Part shown: positions 11,415 through 30,585 of the stretch, in pieces
Layout of the letters: every line of letters begins with the position of its first letter
Numbering within the stretch: position 1 is the stretch's first letter
Virus record (IMG/VR): IMGVR_UViG_3300007734_000561
Location: 1-30,585 of that record
Length of the DNA: 30,585 bases
Reading direction: 5' to 3' (one strand)
DNA from: a virus
Made by a program: the position numbers and the translations under genes
Notes under the pieces: model-generated
What the model was told of the DNA's origin: nothing
Database searches by the model: none
The model's input: the letters and a program-made list of their open reading frames with translations, nothing else

Positions 11415-11626
11415 CAGATACCCTCCTTGTCGATCTTCTCTCGCGTCCTTGCGATCAGCTTGGCCGCCCAGTCAGCGTTCTCCGCTGCATGAGCAAGGCC
11501 GAGTGCGAGCAACGTGGTAGGCGGCATGGGCTCGGTGATGTCGCACGCAATGTGGACCTCACCATCCTCACGCAAGACGATGCACGAGTCCTTGGGGCCG
11601 ACGATGATCTTGCGGGTCTCAGTCAT
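11414..11626 (-). CDS. small hypothetical protein
   Basis: A 70-residue protein. An N-terminal beta-hairpin-like segment (KIIVGPKDSCIVLREDGEVH) is followed by a helical C-terminus (ALGLAHAAENADWAAKLIAR). There is no signal peptide or recognised family. I chose ATG 11626, with GGGGG six bases upstream; GTG 11629 immediately before is an alternative. The 119 bases upstream are AT-richer. Confidence 0.55.
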   Translation of the reverse strand: MTETRKIIVGPKDSCIVLREDGEVHIACDITEPMPPTTLLALGLAHAAENADWAAKLIARTREKIDKEGI

Positions 11627-11745
11627 CACTCACCCCCGCTGCGCCGTTGTCGACACCTGGCAACATGATAGTCACTCTTGCTCGCATCTTGTAGTGGCAA
11701 GTTGCACATCTTCTGATTTTACCCGTTACCGTCAGTTGCGGGTAG
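11627..11745 (-). promoter_or_regulatory. 119-base AT-richer intergenic region
   Basis: No gene is seen. The region separates the 11746-12747 gene from the downstream pair. Present are TAGTCACTC as a direct repeat (11669-11677 and 11743-11751), an ACCCG/CGGGT inverted repeat just beyond the stop at 11746 and the 8-bp palindrome TGTCGACA at 11648-11655. I could not fix a -35/-10 pair with good spacing, so a promoter is only likely. Confidence 0.35.
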
Positions 11746-12747
11746 TCACTCGCCCCGTTCGGCGATCTTCTCGTTGGCGTACTCGAGGTGCTCGGTGTAG
11801 CCGGCGAGCCCCTGCTTCCACGGCCCGACGAAGTTGATGCGGAGGTCGCGCGCCTGGTCGGACGAAAGGTAGCCCTCCGGCAGGCAGGCCCCAGTGATCC
11901 GGTCGAAGGCGATGGGCCAGTCGCCATTGGTGACGGTGCAGAACACCGTCTCGTTCTCCACCCGATCCACCTTGCACAGCAGCGACGCGAGCTTCTTGCC
12001 GGCGGTGAACCACATGCCCTTGGTGAGGGAGGTAAGGCCGAGGGGGGAGGCGGCCTCGAACTTCGCCGCATCGACGACGATCTGCTCGCGCTTCGGCAGC
12101 GCCTCGTTGATCATGTGCTCGCCGATGCCGTCTGCCTCAAGAGCCGGCAGGCCGTGCTTCGGCTCCTTGCCGGTCGCCGCGTATGCCAGGTTGACGGCTC
12201 CCTTGAGCGTGTCGTAGGCGGCGTTGCCGCCGAGCTCCCAGTAGTCGATGATCTTGCGGCAAGCGGCGAGCGCCGCGTCATTGTCGCCCTCCACCACCTT
12301 CACCGGCACCGCATCGCCCTTGTACCCATCGGGGTATGCCTTGGTCTTGTTGGCGATCACCAGCTCGAGCGTCTTCTCCATGCCCTTGCGGACGTCGAGC
12401 CAGCCGAGCGCGTTCCAGGCCAGCATCTTCTTGTCGAGGACGTTGGCGATCTGCTTCATGCACTCGTCGACCACGCTGGCCACCGCCGCCTTCGACATGG
12501 CGAAGGTGCGCTGCGGCTCGTCGCGGCGGGGCAGGTAGCCGTAGTCGTAGTCGCTGCGCTGCCGGCTGGTGATCGACCCGAGGTCGGTGAGCGGGTCGTT
12601 CATGGTCGCGTCACGCAGCCCGGCGATGCGGCTGTAGTCACCATAGGCACGATGGCTGGCCCGCGGATTGAACGGGGCGGCGGTGTCGCGCGGAGCCTGC
12701 GGGGTAAGACCGACTTCGCTCGCGCGCTTGCTGATGAGTTCCTTCAT
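11746..12747 (-). CDS. hypothetical protein in the CobT/CobS-like operon
   Basis: A 333-residue soluble protein without a signal peptide. It begins MKELISKRASEVGLTPQAPR. The middle is helical (AAVASVVDECMKQIANVLDK) and contains a central AALAACRKIIDYWELGGNAA. The C-terminus has a mixed alpha/beta composition. I do not recognise a family or an active site. GGGAG lies six bases before ATG 12747, which overlaps the upstream TGA as ATGA. It is downstream of, and probably co-transcribed with, the VWA/zincin and AAA+ genes, so it may be a substrate or partner of that complex. Confidence 0.55.
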   Translation of the reverse strand: MKELISKRASEVGLTPQAPRDTAAPFNPRASHRAYGDYSRIAGLRDATMNDPLTDLGSITSRQRSDYDYGYLPRRDEPQRTFAMSKAAVASVVDECMKQIANVLDKKMLAWNALGWLDVRKGMEKTLELVIANKTKAYPDGYKGDAVPVKVVEGDNDAALAACRKIIDYWELGGNAAYDTLKGAVNLAYAATGKEPKHGLPALEADGIGEHMINEALPKREQIVVDAAKFEAASPLGLTSLTKGMWFTAGKKLASLLCKVDRVENETVFCTVTNGDWPIAFDRITGACLPEGYLSSDQARDLRINFVGPWKQGLAGYTEHLEYANEKIAERGE

Positions 12748-16830: not shown

Positions 16831-16875
16831 TCAGCGGGGTTGCCGCTGTTGTTCTCCCCCTCCCCCTTTGGGGGA
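16831..16875 (-). repeat. CCCCCTTTGGGGG hairpin and second stem upstream of the CobS-like gene
   Basis: Bases 16862-16866 (CCCCC) and 16870-16874 (GGGGG) flank TTT, a short stem of the type found again at 19959-19973, 20069-20083 and 20135-20150. A second stem (AGCGG/CCGCT) lies at 16832-16846, beside the GGAGG of the CobS-like gene. It may be a weak terminator for the preceding gene or a leader element. There is no downstream U-run, so the terminator role is doubtful. Confidence 0.5.
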
Positions 16876-18546: not shown

Positions 18547-18822
18547 TCAGCTCGCGAAGTTGCGGTCGCAGTCGGCGATGCGCTGGACACGGGCGAGGCT
18601 GTCGCCCCGGTCCATGAGGGCGCTGGCCAACTCCTGGATGCGCTCGACGGCGATGGCGTCCTTGCGGACGATCTCGTCGTGCAGCGCCTTCGAGACGCGG
18701 GACGGAGCCCGGTCCCACATGCGCTTGCGACCGAGGGCGACGAGGAACAGGGTCCGGCGGAGCTTGGCGGTCTCGGCCAGGCGGCGGACGGTGCGCGCGG
18801 TGCGCTCGCGGAGGGTGGTCAA
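18547..18822 (-). CDS. small basic hypothetical protein (TTG start)
   Basis: A 91-residue protein that is Arg-rich at its N-terminus (MTTLRERTARTVRRLAETAK) and helical (ALHDEIVRKDAIAVERIQEL). It has no recognised domain. TTG 18822 is preferred because GGAGG lies six bases upstream and the codon overlaps the previous TGA as TTGA. A longer frame to 18855 would overlap the upstream gene by 37 bases and lacks a site. Confidence 0.5.
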   Translation of the reverse strand: MTTLRERTARTVRRLAETAKLRRTLFLVALGRKRMWDRAPSRVSKALHDEIVRKDAIAVERIQELASALMDRGDSLARVQRIADCDRNFAS

Positions 18823-18992
18823 CGCGCACCTCCGGCGATCTTGCGCGCCAGCCACACGCTCTTGTGGCGGGCGAGTTCGACGGGCCGCTTGTCGGCGGCG
18901 ATGGCGGCGCGGAACTCCGTGTGCGACCGCTCGCCCATGGGCTTGACGACCTTGTTCCAGAACGTGACAGTGGTGCCCTTACGCATGGTCAT
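18819..18992 (-). CDS. small hypothetical protein
   Basis: A 57-residue protein: MTMRKGTTVTFWNKVVKPMG, then a helical segment and a basic tail (LARHKSVWLARKIAGGAR). ATG 18992 has GGAG six bases upstream; ATG 19004 is an alternative. It is the first gene after the 19005-19341 hairpin region and so may be controlled by it. I recognise no family. Confidence 0.45.
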   Translation of the reverse strand: MTMRKGTTVTFWNKVVKPMGERSHTEFRAAIAADKRPVELARHKSVWLARKIAGGAR

Positions 18993-19004: not shown

Positions 19005-19341
19005 GGCTGTGTCGTAGGAGCCCGCGAACGGATGCTCCTAGCGACGATTGTGGGAAAGCGGGGCTGGGTGTTGGCACACCTGGCCCCGCTGCTTTTTCGG
19101 GGTTGGCCGTAGCGACGACGTCGAGCGTGGGCCGGGCGCTTGACGTGCGGGAGCGAGCATCGGACGCTGGTCGTCCGGCTCGCCCATGGTGCCTAGGGTT
19201 GGGTGGGTCGTAACGGGCTGGCGCTCGGGCCTTCGCAAAGGCCAGCCTGACGGGCAACGGACGTGGCCGCGTCCCGCGCTGTCGTGCGGCACGGGGCTGG
19301 AGCGATGGCCGCTTGCTCCAGCCCCACCGCGATGGCCACGC
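19005..19341 (-). other. 337-base non-coding region with five strong hairpins
   Basis: No frame here has the coding composition of its neighbours. Five stems are seen: 19011-19045 (GTCGTAGGAGC with GCTCCTA and CGAC); 19057-19090 (AGCGGGGC...GCCCCGCT, inner GGTGT/ACACC); 19149-19185 (GCGAGC+CGGACG with CGTCCG+GCTCGC, 12 pairs and a two-base bulge); 19216-19247 (GGCTGGC/GCCAGCC, competing with GGCCTT/AAGGCC); 19293-19325 (GGGGCTGGAGC/GCTCCAGCCCC, 11 perfect pairs). It separates two - strand genes, so it could be a structured leader, 3' region or non-coding RNA. I do not recognise a known RNA family. Confidence 0.5.
19057..19097 (+). terminator. intrinsic terminator-like hairpin with + strand U-run
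   Basis: AGCGGGGC (19057-19064) pairs with GCCCCGCT (19083-19090). An inner GGTGT/ACACC stem with a TGGC loop extends it, and TTTTT follows at 19093-19097. The downstream half can instead pair CCCCG (19084-19088) with CGGGG (19098-19102), a terminator/antiterminator-like choice. The T-run is on the + strand, although the neighbouring genes are on the - strand. Confidence 0.6.
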
Positions 19342-19890
19342 TCAAATGCGCTTGAGCAGGCCGGCGACGAACTCGCAGATGTCCGCCTTCGAGTGCTTGG
19401 CGACCAGGAGGTCGCCGATGGTGTTGAGGGTCGCCTTCGGCGTCGGCTCCGCCGTCTGCGAGGTGGCCTTGGCGATGGGCGCGGGGGTGCTGCGCTTGGC
19501 GGCGAGCTTGGCGCGGCCGTCGGCGAGCACCTGGGCCTGGGCCGGGGTGATCTCGCGCTTCGGGCCGGCCTTGGCCGCCGCCTGGGCGGGCACCGCGGAC
19601 GCCTGCGGAGCGGGCTTGCTGCCCTTGGCGATGCCGAGGTCGGCCAGGCAGGCGACGCGGGTGTCGGCCTCCGGCCGGCGGGCGTCCGCGAGCAGGACCG
19701 TGACGCCGTTGGTGCCGGTCGGCGTGACGGGGATCACCTTGCCCGAGAGCTTGACGGCGAAGCCGGACCCGTCCGTGAACGTGCGCAGCGGGCGGATGAG
19801 CGTCTCGGCCTTGGGCTTGCCGTCGATCCCGACCTGGGTGACGACGACGGTGAGGCTGCGAAGCAGCGACGTGCTGGCGATGGCGGTCAT
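19342..19890 (-). CDS. hypothetical protein, first gene of the leftward block
   Basis: A 182-residue protein. Residues about 1-85 are beta-rich (SLTVVVTQVGIDGKPKAETL, FAVKLSGKVIPVTPTGTNGV). A low-complexity Ala/Pro/Lys linker follows (about 90-155), and a helical C-terminal segment ends it (LNTIGDLLVAKHSKADICEF). No family is recognised. CTAGGAGC lies six bases before ATG 19890. Its position at the start of the - strand block, adjacent to the divergent control region, suggests early expression. An inverted repeat (GCTCAA/TTGAGC) lies at its 3' end. Confidence 0.6.
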   Translation of the reverse strand: MTAIASTSLLRSLTVVVTQVGIDGKPKAETLIRPLRTFTDGSGFAVKLSGKVIPVTPTGTNGVTVLLADARRPEADTRVACLADLGIAKGSKPAPQASAVPAQAAAKAGPKREITPAQAQVLADGRAKLAAKRSTPAPIAKATSQTAEPTPKATLNTIGDLLVAKHSKADICEFVAGLLKRI

Positions 19891-20150
19891 GATGCGCTCC
19901 TAGCGTTGGCATTGCCGGTGGACCGACCGGCGGCGGTTCGACACCCCCCTTCTCCCCTGTCCCCTTTGGGGACTGCGTGCGCCTGGCGCATAGCGTGGGG
20001 AGCGACGCGGCCCGAGAGCCTCGCCAAGCCAACCGGAGGGCCGGTCGGCTCACCCCCCTTCTCCCCTCCTCCCCTTTGGGGAGACGCGGTGCGCGCAGCT
20101 CGCGAGTGGAGGGGTGGAAAAGCCGACGGAACCGGTCCCCTTTAGGGGAC
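19891..20150. promoter_or_regulatory. 260-base divergent control region with CCCCTTTGGGG repeats
   Basis: It lies between the leftward 19890 start and the rightward 20151 start, so it should hold both promoters. No consensus -35/-10 pair is convincing. A near-direct repeat, CACCCCCCTTCTCCCCT plus CCCCTTTGGGGA, occurs at about 19942-19972 and 20051-20082, each with a stem (GTCCCC/GGGGAC at 19959-19973; CTCCCC/GGGGAG at 20069-20083). CCGACCGG (19923-19930) and CCGGTCGG (20041-20048) form an 8-bp inverted repeat. The packaging site could also be here. Confidence 0.5.
20135..20150 (+). promoter_or_regulatory. hairpin covering the ribosome-binding site of the first packaging gene
   Basis: GTCCCC (20135-20140), loop TTTA and GGGGAC (20145-20150) end directly at ATG 20151. 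The right arm contains the only purine-rich Shine-Dalgarno candidate (AGGGG), so folding would hide the ribosome-binding site. It resembles the other CCCCTTTGGGG stems but here lies on a start. Confidence 0.5.
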
Positions 20151-24675: not shown

Positions 24676-24948
24676 ATGACCCCCACCAGCACCGAGCTCG
24701 AGCAGCAGCTCCAGCCCCTCCAGCGCCTCTACATCAAGGCGCTGCTCCATGAAGCCGCGGCCGAGCACGCCAAGGAGCACGACCAGCTCAAGGAGAGCTT
24801 CGCCGTCCGCATCCGCGCCCTCAACGAGGCTCTGGCCGAGGAGCGCGCCCACACGAACAAGCTGGAGCGCCTGATCGGCCTCACCCCCGCCAGCCGCCGC
24901 CGCCTCGGCGAGATGATCGACGCCATCAACCGGGCCATCGGCGAATGA
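24676..24948 (+). CDS. small coiled-coil protein
   Basis: A 90-residue protein beginning directly after the portal TAA. Nearly the whole chain is charged heptad-like helix (HEAAAEHAKEHDQLKESFAV, LNEALAEERAHTNKLERLIG), so it is a coiled coil. Its stop overlaps the tail-fibre ATG as ATGA. The position suggests a head- or fibre-joining accessory protein, but no family is recognised. Confidence 0.6.
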   Translation: MTPTSTELEQQLQPLQRLYIKALLHEAAAEHAKEHDQLKESFAVRIRALNEALAEERAHTNKLERLIGLTPASRRRLGEMIDAINRAIGE

Positions 24949-26708
24949 CCGGCATCACCCGCCCCACCGGCGAGCAGCTCCGCTTCGAGAGCGCCCTCAC
25001 CGGCTCTCACGTCCTCGACGACTACCTCGAAGACGCCGAGGTCGGCGGCCGCACCCTGGCCGACCTCATGGGCGACCTGTTCGACAGCGACACCGGCTCC
25101 TTCGTGCCGTTCACCCACCGCGGCACCTACGCCAACACCACCGCCTACAACAAGGGCGACCTCGCGCGCACCACCGCCGCGACCGACCTGTCCTCGGTCC
25201 CCGCGACCTATTGCTGCGTCGTCGCCTACACCTCCGCCGTCAGCATGAATGCCGACATCGCCAACTGGCGCCTGGTCGCCAAGGACGGCGACGTCGGCGC
25301 CACGGGTTCCACCGGCGCAACGGGCGCCACCGGCGCGACCGGTGCGACCGGTGCCGCCCCGACCATCACCACGACCAGCACCACCAGCCGCACCATCGGC
25401 GCCGGCAGCTTCACCTTCACCACCGCTGCCGCCCTGACCGCTGCCATCGGCACGCCGCTGACCTTCACCAGCCGCGCCAACTCCGCCAACTTCCTCAGCG
25501 GCGCCGTCACCGCCATCGCCGGCACGTCCGTCACCATCCTGGTCGGCGCCAACGACTATGGCGGCTCCGGCGCCCAGGCCGACTGGGACGTGAGCTTCTC
25601 CGGCTTCCGCGGCCCCGTCGGCGCCACCGGCGCGACCGGCTCCCCTGGCGCCGCCAGTGAGAGCGCCGCCGGTATCGTCGAGATCCCGACGCAAACCGAG
25701 CACGACACCGGTACCGACGACGGCCGCGCGTCCTCGCCACTGAAGATCGCCGCCGCGCCTTACACCATCGGCAAGAACGTCTTCATCAACGGCGCGATGG
25801 AGATCTGGCAGGCGGGCACCGGCTCAACCACGGCGACGGCGGGTTCGCGGAACTACCTCGCCGATCAGTGGTATGTGAACCCGTCGGGCGCCAACATGGC
25901 GATGGCACGGTCGACCACCGTGCCGACCGCGAGCAACAAGGCGCGCTACTCGCTTCAGGTGACCGGCGCCACCAGCGGCACCACCTGCCTGATCGGCACC
26001 CGCGTCCCCGCGGCCGACGTGCCGGCGGTGAAGGGCTATGCGACTTTCTCGTTCTACGTCGACAACGCCACCGGCGGTGCTTTCACGCCGAACCTTCTGA
26101 TCGGGACGCCGGGCGCGGCCGACGACTTCACCACCGTCACCAACCGCCTGACCCAGGCGATGCAATCGTGCCCGGACGGAGCGATCACCCGCGTCACCTA
26201 TACGGCCGACATCTCGGGCTACACCAACCTCGCGAACGGCCTGCAGGTAGAGCTGCAGGTCCCCAGCGGATCGCTCGACAGCGGCGCCAAGGTCGTCCGC
26301 GTGACGATGTGCCAGGGCGAACTAGGCCAAGTGGCGACGGCCTTCGAGCGGCTGCCGGTCGCCCTCATCCTGTTTCAATGCCAGTATTTCTATCGAGTGT
26401 TCGCGACGGCGGACGGGAACCTCGGCCACGGCTTCGCCGACGGCGCCACGACCGGCACCATCGCCTTCGATCTCGGGCCGCCCATGCGGGTGGCGCCGAC
26501 CTTCTCCGCATCCAACGTCACGCATTTCCAGGTCGATGCCGTCTCGGGCGGCTCGGGAGCGACCACGGGGCTGACGGCGGCCGGCTCCTGGACCAAGTCC
26601 GTCGATCTCCGGCCCGTGCGGTCGGGCTCGTCTTGGACCGCCGGCCAGGGCATTCGTCTGCTGGCGGCGAACGCCTCGGCGGCACTCACCTTCAGCGCGA
26701 GGCTCTGA
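24945..26708 (+). CDS. tail fibre / receptor-binding protein with collagen-like repeats
   Basis: A 587-residue protein. The N-terminal about 60 residues are probably the virion-anchoring part. A small domain at 57-112 (GTYANTTAYNKGDLARTTAA to ANWRLVAKDG) resembles the carbohydrate-binding module in phage fibres. Two collagen-like Gly-X-Y runs follow, at 115-138 (eight triplets) and 220-237 (six). After about residue 275 it turns into NVFINGAMEIWQAG, and the C-terminus has the pattern of a phage tail module ('NG..EIWQ.G...... aDqWyv', ...'FERLPVALILFQCQYFYRVF'). It should determine host range. Third-position use changes near 25.79 kb. Position between portal and capsid genes is unusual. Confidence 0.75.
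   Translation: MTGITRPTGEQLRFESALTGSHVLDDYLEDAEVGGRTLADLMGDLFDSDTGSFVPFTHRGTYANTTAYNKGDLARTTAATDLSSVPATYCCVVAYTSAVSMNADIANWRLVAKDGDVGATGSTGATGATGATGATGAAPTITTTSTTSRTIGAGSFTFTTAAALTAAIGTPLTFTSRANSANFLSGAVTAIAGTSVTILVGANDYGGSGAQADWDVSFSGFRGPVGATGATGSPGAASESAAGIVEIPTQTEHDTGTDDGRASSPLKIAAAPYTIGKNVFINGAMEIWQAGTGSTTATAGSRNYLADQWYVNPSGANMAMARSTTVPTASNKARYSLQVTGATSGTTCLIGTRVPAADVPAVKGYATFSFYVDNATGGAFTPNLLIGTPGAADDFTTVTNRLTQAMQSCPDGAITRVTYTADISGYTNLANGLQVELQVPSGSLDSGAKVVRVTMCQGELGQVATAFERLPVALILFQCQYFYRVFATADGNLGHGFADGATTGTIAFDLGPPMRVAPTFSASNVTHFQVDAVSGGSGATTGLTAAGSWTKSVDLRPVRSGSSWTAGQGIRLLAANASAALTFSARL
25287..25358 (+). repeat. collagen-like Gly-X-Y repeat, eight triplets
   Basis: The DNA repeats a nine-base GGC-GCN-ACC unit encoding G-A-T (with G-D-V, G-S-T and G-A-A variants). 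Such repeats slip easily and change fibre length. Confidence 0.85.
25602..25655 (+). repeat. second collagen-like Gly-X-Y repeat, six triplets
   Basis: The units are GFR, GPV, GAT, GAT, GSP, GAA. It is separated from the first run by about 80 Thr/Ser/Ala-rich residues, which suggests a trimeric stalk in two parts. Confidence 0.8.
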
Positions 26709-30401: not shown

Positions 30402-30434
30402 AAGGGGGGAGGGCAACTTCCCCCCTTCCTTTTT
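30402..30434 (+). terminator. intrinsic terminator after the capsid gene
   Basis: AAGGGGGGA (30402-30410) pairs with TCCCCCCTT (30419-30427), eight-base loop, followed by TTTTT at 30430-30434. The next gene's GGAG lies directly behind the T-run, so read-through would be partial and the terminator would set the capsid/next-gene ratio. Confidence 0.8.
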
Positions 30435-30443
30435 GGAGCCAAC

Positions 30444-30585
30444 ATGTCCGAGACCGACCAGGCCGACACCACCACGAAGCCGGCCCCGAAGACCTCCGTC
30501 CCGCCGTCCAAGACCCACACGATCTTCTTCTCCAAGGAGAAGGAGCTCTACGCCATCGAGATCGAGGTTGGGACCCATGACAGCA
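30444..30585 (+). CDS. N-terminal part of a post-capsid gene
   Basis: A frame with a GGAG ribosome-binding site just before ATG 30444 runs to the right edge (47 residues visible, no stop). The first about 23 residues are Thr/Lys/Pro-rich, followed by HTIFFSKEKELYAIEIEVGT. The position suggests a head completion or decoration protein. Nothing more can be said from the fragment. Confidence 0.55.
   Translation, partial: MSETDQADTTTKPAPKTSVPPSKTHTIFFSKEKELYAIEIEVGTHDS

Follow-up and report, generated by a model that had tools for sequence, protein, structure and literature searches.

The 337-base spacer at positions 19005-19341 of the viral record analysed here (the window, by which we mean the whole stretch of 30,585 nucleotides) is real non-coding sequence, strongly folded and with a genuine excess of structure. 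It lies between two - strand genes, gene 1 (19342-19890) and gene 2 (18819-18992), and we give about an even chance to the reading that it is intercistronic punctuation, made up of a 3'-end or terminator hairpin for gene 1 and an opposing terminator. Evidence for the placement of the gene 1 hairpin, which we call H1, is good, and evidence for its action is moderate because a U-tract is missing; for anything past the placement and action of H1 it is weak. A vague 'structured RNA' is turned in this way into a testable piece of punctuation, and it is a three-way-junction RNA found in a sub-clade of relatives, and described by no Rfam model, that merits a closer look rather than the spacer of the window.

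The phage and its relatives

Judged from its genes, the window is a CRP-810-type phage, a bacterial virus of marine type. Its CobS, terminase and capsid proteins are 36%, 47% and 53% identical to those of Roseobacter phage CRP-810, its integrase, LuxR-annotated protein and CobT also match that phage, and homologous terminase, portal, capsid, cobS/cobT and integrase genes stand in conserved order. CRP-810 and 251 environmental relatives form one phage family (PMC11288001), and the main text of that paper does not mention a terminator, a hairpin or an intergenic element. The closest relative that we found is IMG/VR 3300031159_000072 (L015; capsid 61%, portal 63-64%, terminase 54%), and a search for prophage relatives in 385 genomes of Poseidonocella's class returned just the one already known. 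The 30,585-base record may represent a circular genome in full, cut within a gene; an open frame at 30444-30585 continues in frame into an open frame at 1-398 across the record ends.

Two other features of the window deserve description. Where the leftward and rightward genes diverge, a palindromic TCCCCTTTNGGGGA-like motif occurs three times (19959-19973, 20069-20083 and 20136-20149), two of these copies being preceded by CACCCCCCTTCTCCCCT, and a fourth copy, CCCCCTTTGGGGGA, lies at 16862; the palindromes are possible operators, and their count with mismatches allowed is not significant window-wide. In the tail fibre-like gene at 24945-26708, 9-base repeats at 25277-25377 and 25583-25665 give a collagen-like Gly-Ala-Thr repeat.

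Coding status and folding of the spacer

Gene 1 (- strand, 182 aa), recognized by coding score, homologues and profile search, opens the leftward operon, and its family is conserved in a CRP-810-type sub-clade. Gene 2 (- strand, 57 aa) starts with an ATG at 18992, with GGAG upstream, and a search for its homologues returned none. A first-pass annotation had described the sequence between them as non-coding, and this is borne out: frame-specific GC is flat across 19059-19355 and strongly periodic in both flanking genes, and in a codon-usage score all six spacer frames fall far short of the usage typical of the phage, gene 1 and gene 2 both being positive. We rejected a hidden gene (the 84- and 92-aa open reading frames have neither codon signal nor homologues), a tRNA or tmRNA (none detected), a mobile-element or plasmid origin (no match) and a relic of a 67-aa reading frame that L015 carries behind gene 1 (zero protein-level similarity). 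Searches of phages, plasmids and the relatives' loci compared turned up no recognisable relative of the 337 bases.

The same annotation had called the spacer rich in hairpins, a description that holds; what stands out is the strength of its folding and the length of its stems rather than their number. The minimum free energy is -195 kcal/mol on the + strand (z -4.85) and -161 kcal/mol on the - strand (z -3.99), values that none of 100 shuffles equalled on either strand, and among about 300 segments of 337 nt the spacer, on the + strand, is the top structure for its GC. Window-wide scans place both record stems within it: the longest Watson-Crick stem, with loops of up to 14 allowed, is the 11 bp at 19293-19325, and the longest stem allowing G·U is the 15 bp, with two G-U pairs, at 19057-19090, each length being reached by 0.2% of shuffles (1/500). 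The - strand forms five to six separate hairpins with mean pair probabilities of 0.7-1.0. The count of stems with seven or more pairs is ordinary, at 2 against 0.5 expected without G-U pairs (p 0.09) and 9 against 6.6 expected with them (p 0.21).

A further proposal, that some stems are mutually exclusive in the way of riboswitches and attenuators, did not survive: the alternative pairings at 19080-19106 and in the inner part of 19227-19242 are possible on paper and have a probability of 0.00 on both strands. With no two folds of comparable stability and no Rfam class, we rejected a riboswitch or attenuator leader. The annotation's failure to match a named RNA class agrees with our own search, in which no family of Rfam 15 reached its gathering threshold in the spacer and every sub-threshold match (E up to 1) stayed below 60% of the gathering score. 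On the + strand at 19020-19095, over hairpins H5 and H4 described below, symR scored 29.1 bits against a gathering score of 61 and asX6 28.4 against 50, weak matches that probably amount to a hairpin plus a terminator. The sequence TCGTCGCTASG occurs on the - strand at 19037-19047 and 19108-19118, the sole exact copies in the window, 71 bases apart and both in the spacer; as a phage-wide promoter or repeat it was rejected, since the nine matches obtained when one mismatch is tolerated, against 2.8 expected, take in ordinary runs of codons.

Individual hairpins

H1 (19293-19325, - strand) is a perfect 11-bp stem, GGGGCTGGAGC, with an 11-nt loop, -23.6 kcal/mol, and lies 16 nt past the gene 1 stop, where the stem of an intrinsic terminator would be expected. 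It has no U-tract, the stem being followed by GTGCCGC (GTGCCGCACG), and by the usual rule it is therefore not an efficient intrinsic terminator; the relatives' terminators keep their U-tracts even at high GC, as in L015. The same 11-bp stem is also found in four other contigs, none of which shares genes with the window phage.

H4 (19057-19098, + strand), which is antisense to the flanking genes, is the sole hairpin of the spacer with a U-tract. Its GC-rich 15-bp stem (-28.9 kcal/mol) runs into GCTTTTTC, with TTTTT, and is unbroken on the + strand only, its two G-U pairs being A-C on the opposite strand; a search of viral contigs for the H4 pattern gave no occurrence. Together with the intrinsic terminator of the capsid gene (30402-30434, + strand, AAGGGGGGAGGGCAACTTCCCCCCTT followed by CCTTTTT, -21.0, 28 nt past the major capsid gene), H4 is the strongest terminator-like match of the whole window, and the capsid-gene terminator suggests that this phage uses U-tract terminators of the H4 kind. 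Upstream of H4 the + strand holds no gene, just a weak promoter-like site, TTGACG-17-GACAGT, at 18943-18971 (8/12 consensus match), 86 nt before the hairpin.

The remaining structures are less distinctive in position. H2 (19215-19248, - strand) has a 7-bp outer stem, GGCTGGC/GCCAGCC, with a pair probability of 0.89 on the - strand and 0.79 on the + strand, and H3 (19147-19186, - strand) consists of two 6-8 bp stems flanking a 2-nt bulge, with a probability of 0.82 on the - strand and 0.04 on the + strand, where it is absent. An additional stem, ACGTCGAGCG/CGCTTGACGT, at 19117-19147 has no assigned strand, its probability being 0.88 on the + strand and 0.71 on the - strand, where one pair is broken. 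H5 (19012-19046, - strand; TAGGAGC/GCTCCTA) stands immediately upstream of the ribosome-binding region of gene 2.

Terminators behind the first leftward gene

Homologues of gene 1 occur in L015 (38% identity over the aligned part), L056 (32%) and L017, L023, L036 and L037 (33-42%), as well as in L022 and, through an additional scan, in L103, L105, L107, L109, L110 and L113. A hairpin follows the 3' end of gene 1 in all 13 loci examined, the window included. Its stem is 9-12 bp within 70 nt past gene 1 in ten of these, again including the window, and 6 bp in the remaining three, against 26 of 180 reading-frame ends in general with a stem of 9 bp or more, a background that itself includes the gene 1 ends. 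Stem sequences are unrelated across types (CTCTAGGGGAA, AGGGTAGTC and AGCCCGCCC), and the hairpins of L015, L109 and L110 lead into at least five consecutive T, which makes them canonical terminators.

The pattern extends beyond gene 1 itself. Other members of the phage family start their leftward genes with a different gene that is likewise closed by a canonical terminator, as in CRP-810 (gp01) and, 8-23 nt past the stop, in L021, L025, L041, L053, L060, L064, L067, L068, L081, L085, L089, L091, L093 and L096; in L078 the terminator sits after the second gene (66 aa) instead. Because CRP-810 gp01, these loci and the gene 1 loci L015, L109 and L110 all carry one, closing the first leftward gene with a terminator is, as read from the compared sequences, a common habit of the CRP-810-type family. 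What else stands in the slot behind gene 1 varies by sub-clade, from a 67-aa reading frame in L015 to the three-way junction, extra hairpins in L109 and nothing beyond the terminator in L110. The L015 frame (11583-11783, - strand) has a good ribosome-binding site (MSRPRFDWTKPYLPLRSTAALYS...) and no homologue in the relatives' loci compared.

One option offered by the first-pass annotation was a 3' element of the 19342 gene, which the family comparison favors for H1. In the arrangement that we envision, transcription of the leftward and probably early operon would pass through the spacer just past its first gene, and H1, read from 19325 to 19293, would mark the 3' terminus of the gene 1 mRNA. 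Standing in for the intrinsic terminator of the relatives, H1 might act as RNA without a U-tract, either terminating weakly or protecting and defining the mRNA end, and the yield of gene 1 could as a result exceed that of the genes downstream. H4 would be an opposite-facing intrinsic terminator that halts rightward, antisense transcription, and H2, H3 and H5 would be local folds in GC-rich spacer sequence that is not translated. Besides the missing U-tract of H1, two observations count against this reading: H4 faces no annotated + strand gene, and the spacer exceeds that of most relatives in length and has hairpins beyond those that a terminator requires. More broadly, the common closure of the first leftward gene by a terminator in a globally distributed phage family suggests that gene 1 is produced in excess over the rest of its operon.

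A three-way-junction RNA in the same slot

In an AT-rich sub-clade, the sequence that separates gene 2 from the hairpin of gene 1 contains an RNA of 73-80 nt (L102:3544-3616, L108:3530-3602, L103:1799-1878, L111:3511-3590, L105:3479-3554, L106:3479-3555 and L107:3378-3454) with a 12-bp closing stem, a hairpin bearing an NUUAA loop and a second hairpin. Pairing holds in 98.8% of the cells of its structure, and both sides have changed in 7 of 25 pairs, against 0-1 both-side changes and 32-43% paired in a control with partners slid by one to three columns, in a set of seven sequences only, of three or four types, from which the structure itself was read. No Rfam family matches it. Some members carry a short reading frame, complete with ribosome-binding site, across the RNA (32 codons long in L102 and L108, for example), but that of L111 ends after five codons. 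The slot folds differently in L104 and L109. A covariance model, R1, scores 74-96 bits in the member loci and at best 13.3 bits in the window (E 0.26), no match and on par with its matches in coding sequence, so the window spacer was rejected as a member.

Alternative explanations

Other readings of the spacer can be set against punctuation. A slot that often gains and loses its contents could have left a relic here, a lost small gene with scattered hairpins and no function beyond H1, which we regard as unlikely though credible: the variation of the slot among sub-clades, the failure of the 337 bases to match anything in the searched collections and the absence of a codon signal all fit, yet perfect 11-bp and 15-bp stems and z values near -4 to -5 are unexpected in drifting sequence. 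Somewhat less likely is a small antisense RNA of the + strand, about 120 nt from near 18978 to near 19098 and ending in H5 and H4, which would cover the ribosome-binding site and start codon (18992) of gene 2 and block its translation. In its favor, the window's strongest terminator-like hairpin lies on the + strand, the stem is continuous on that strand alone and the + strand has the best fold. On that strand too stands the promoter-like site, one of nine of its kind when both strands of the window are counted; its pairing with H4 was noticed post hoc, and it is just an 8/12 match inside the gene 2 coding sequence. Relatives have no comparable antisense terminator at the equivalent place, and the symR and asX6 scores are far under threshold.

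Quite improbable, in our estimate, is the reading in which the leftward transcript carries a structured RNA with a function here, one that is processed or binds a protein or ligand and would be a GC-rich counterpart in function of the three-way junction. The window spacer is strongly folded, and in L102, L103, L105-L108 and L111 the same slot, past the gene 1 homologue, contains an RNA that shows compensatory changes; against this reading stand the R1 score in the window, the absence there of the conserved NUUAA loop, the terminator and 67-aa reading frame in the slot of the nearest relative, L015, and the slot of L110, which holds a terminator only. It would be a long shot to suppose that structured regulatory RNAs of one family occupy the gene 1-adjacent slot in CRP-810-type phages, among them both the AT-rich three-way junction and the window's sequence-unrelated, GC-rich array of five hairpins, possibly with an antisense RNA on the opposite strand.

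Comparison with known systems

Cis-antisense RNAs of other phages and plasmids block translation, and examples that end in an intrinsic terminator are lambda OOP and P22 sar. The window resembles such systems in having a predicted terminator on the strand opposite a gene start and a weak promoter-like site upstream; it differs in that the promoter is weak and the arrangement is not conserved in relatives. The three-way-junction RNA resembles the window spacer in occupying, on the strand of the genes, the slot that separates gene 1 from gene 2, after a gene 1-adjacent hairpin (L102, L103, L108 and L111); the junction and the NUUAA loop are both missing from the spacer. Set beside the first-gene terminators of the CRP-810-type family (CRP-810 gp01, L081, L085 and L096), H1 differs in being without a U-tract and in being followed by about 270 nt and further hairpins, but it is like them in being a GC-rich hairpin within about 25 nt of the stop, in sense orientation and with a stem sequence free to vary.
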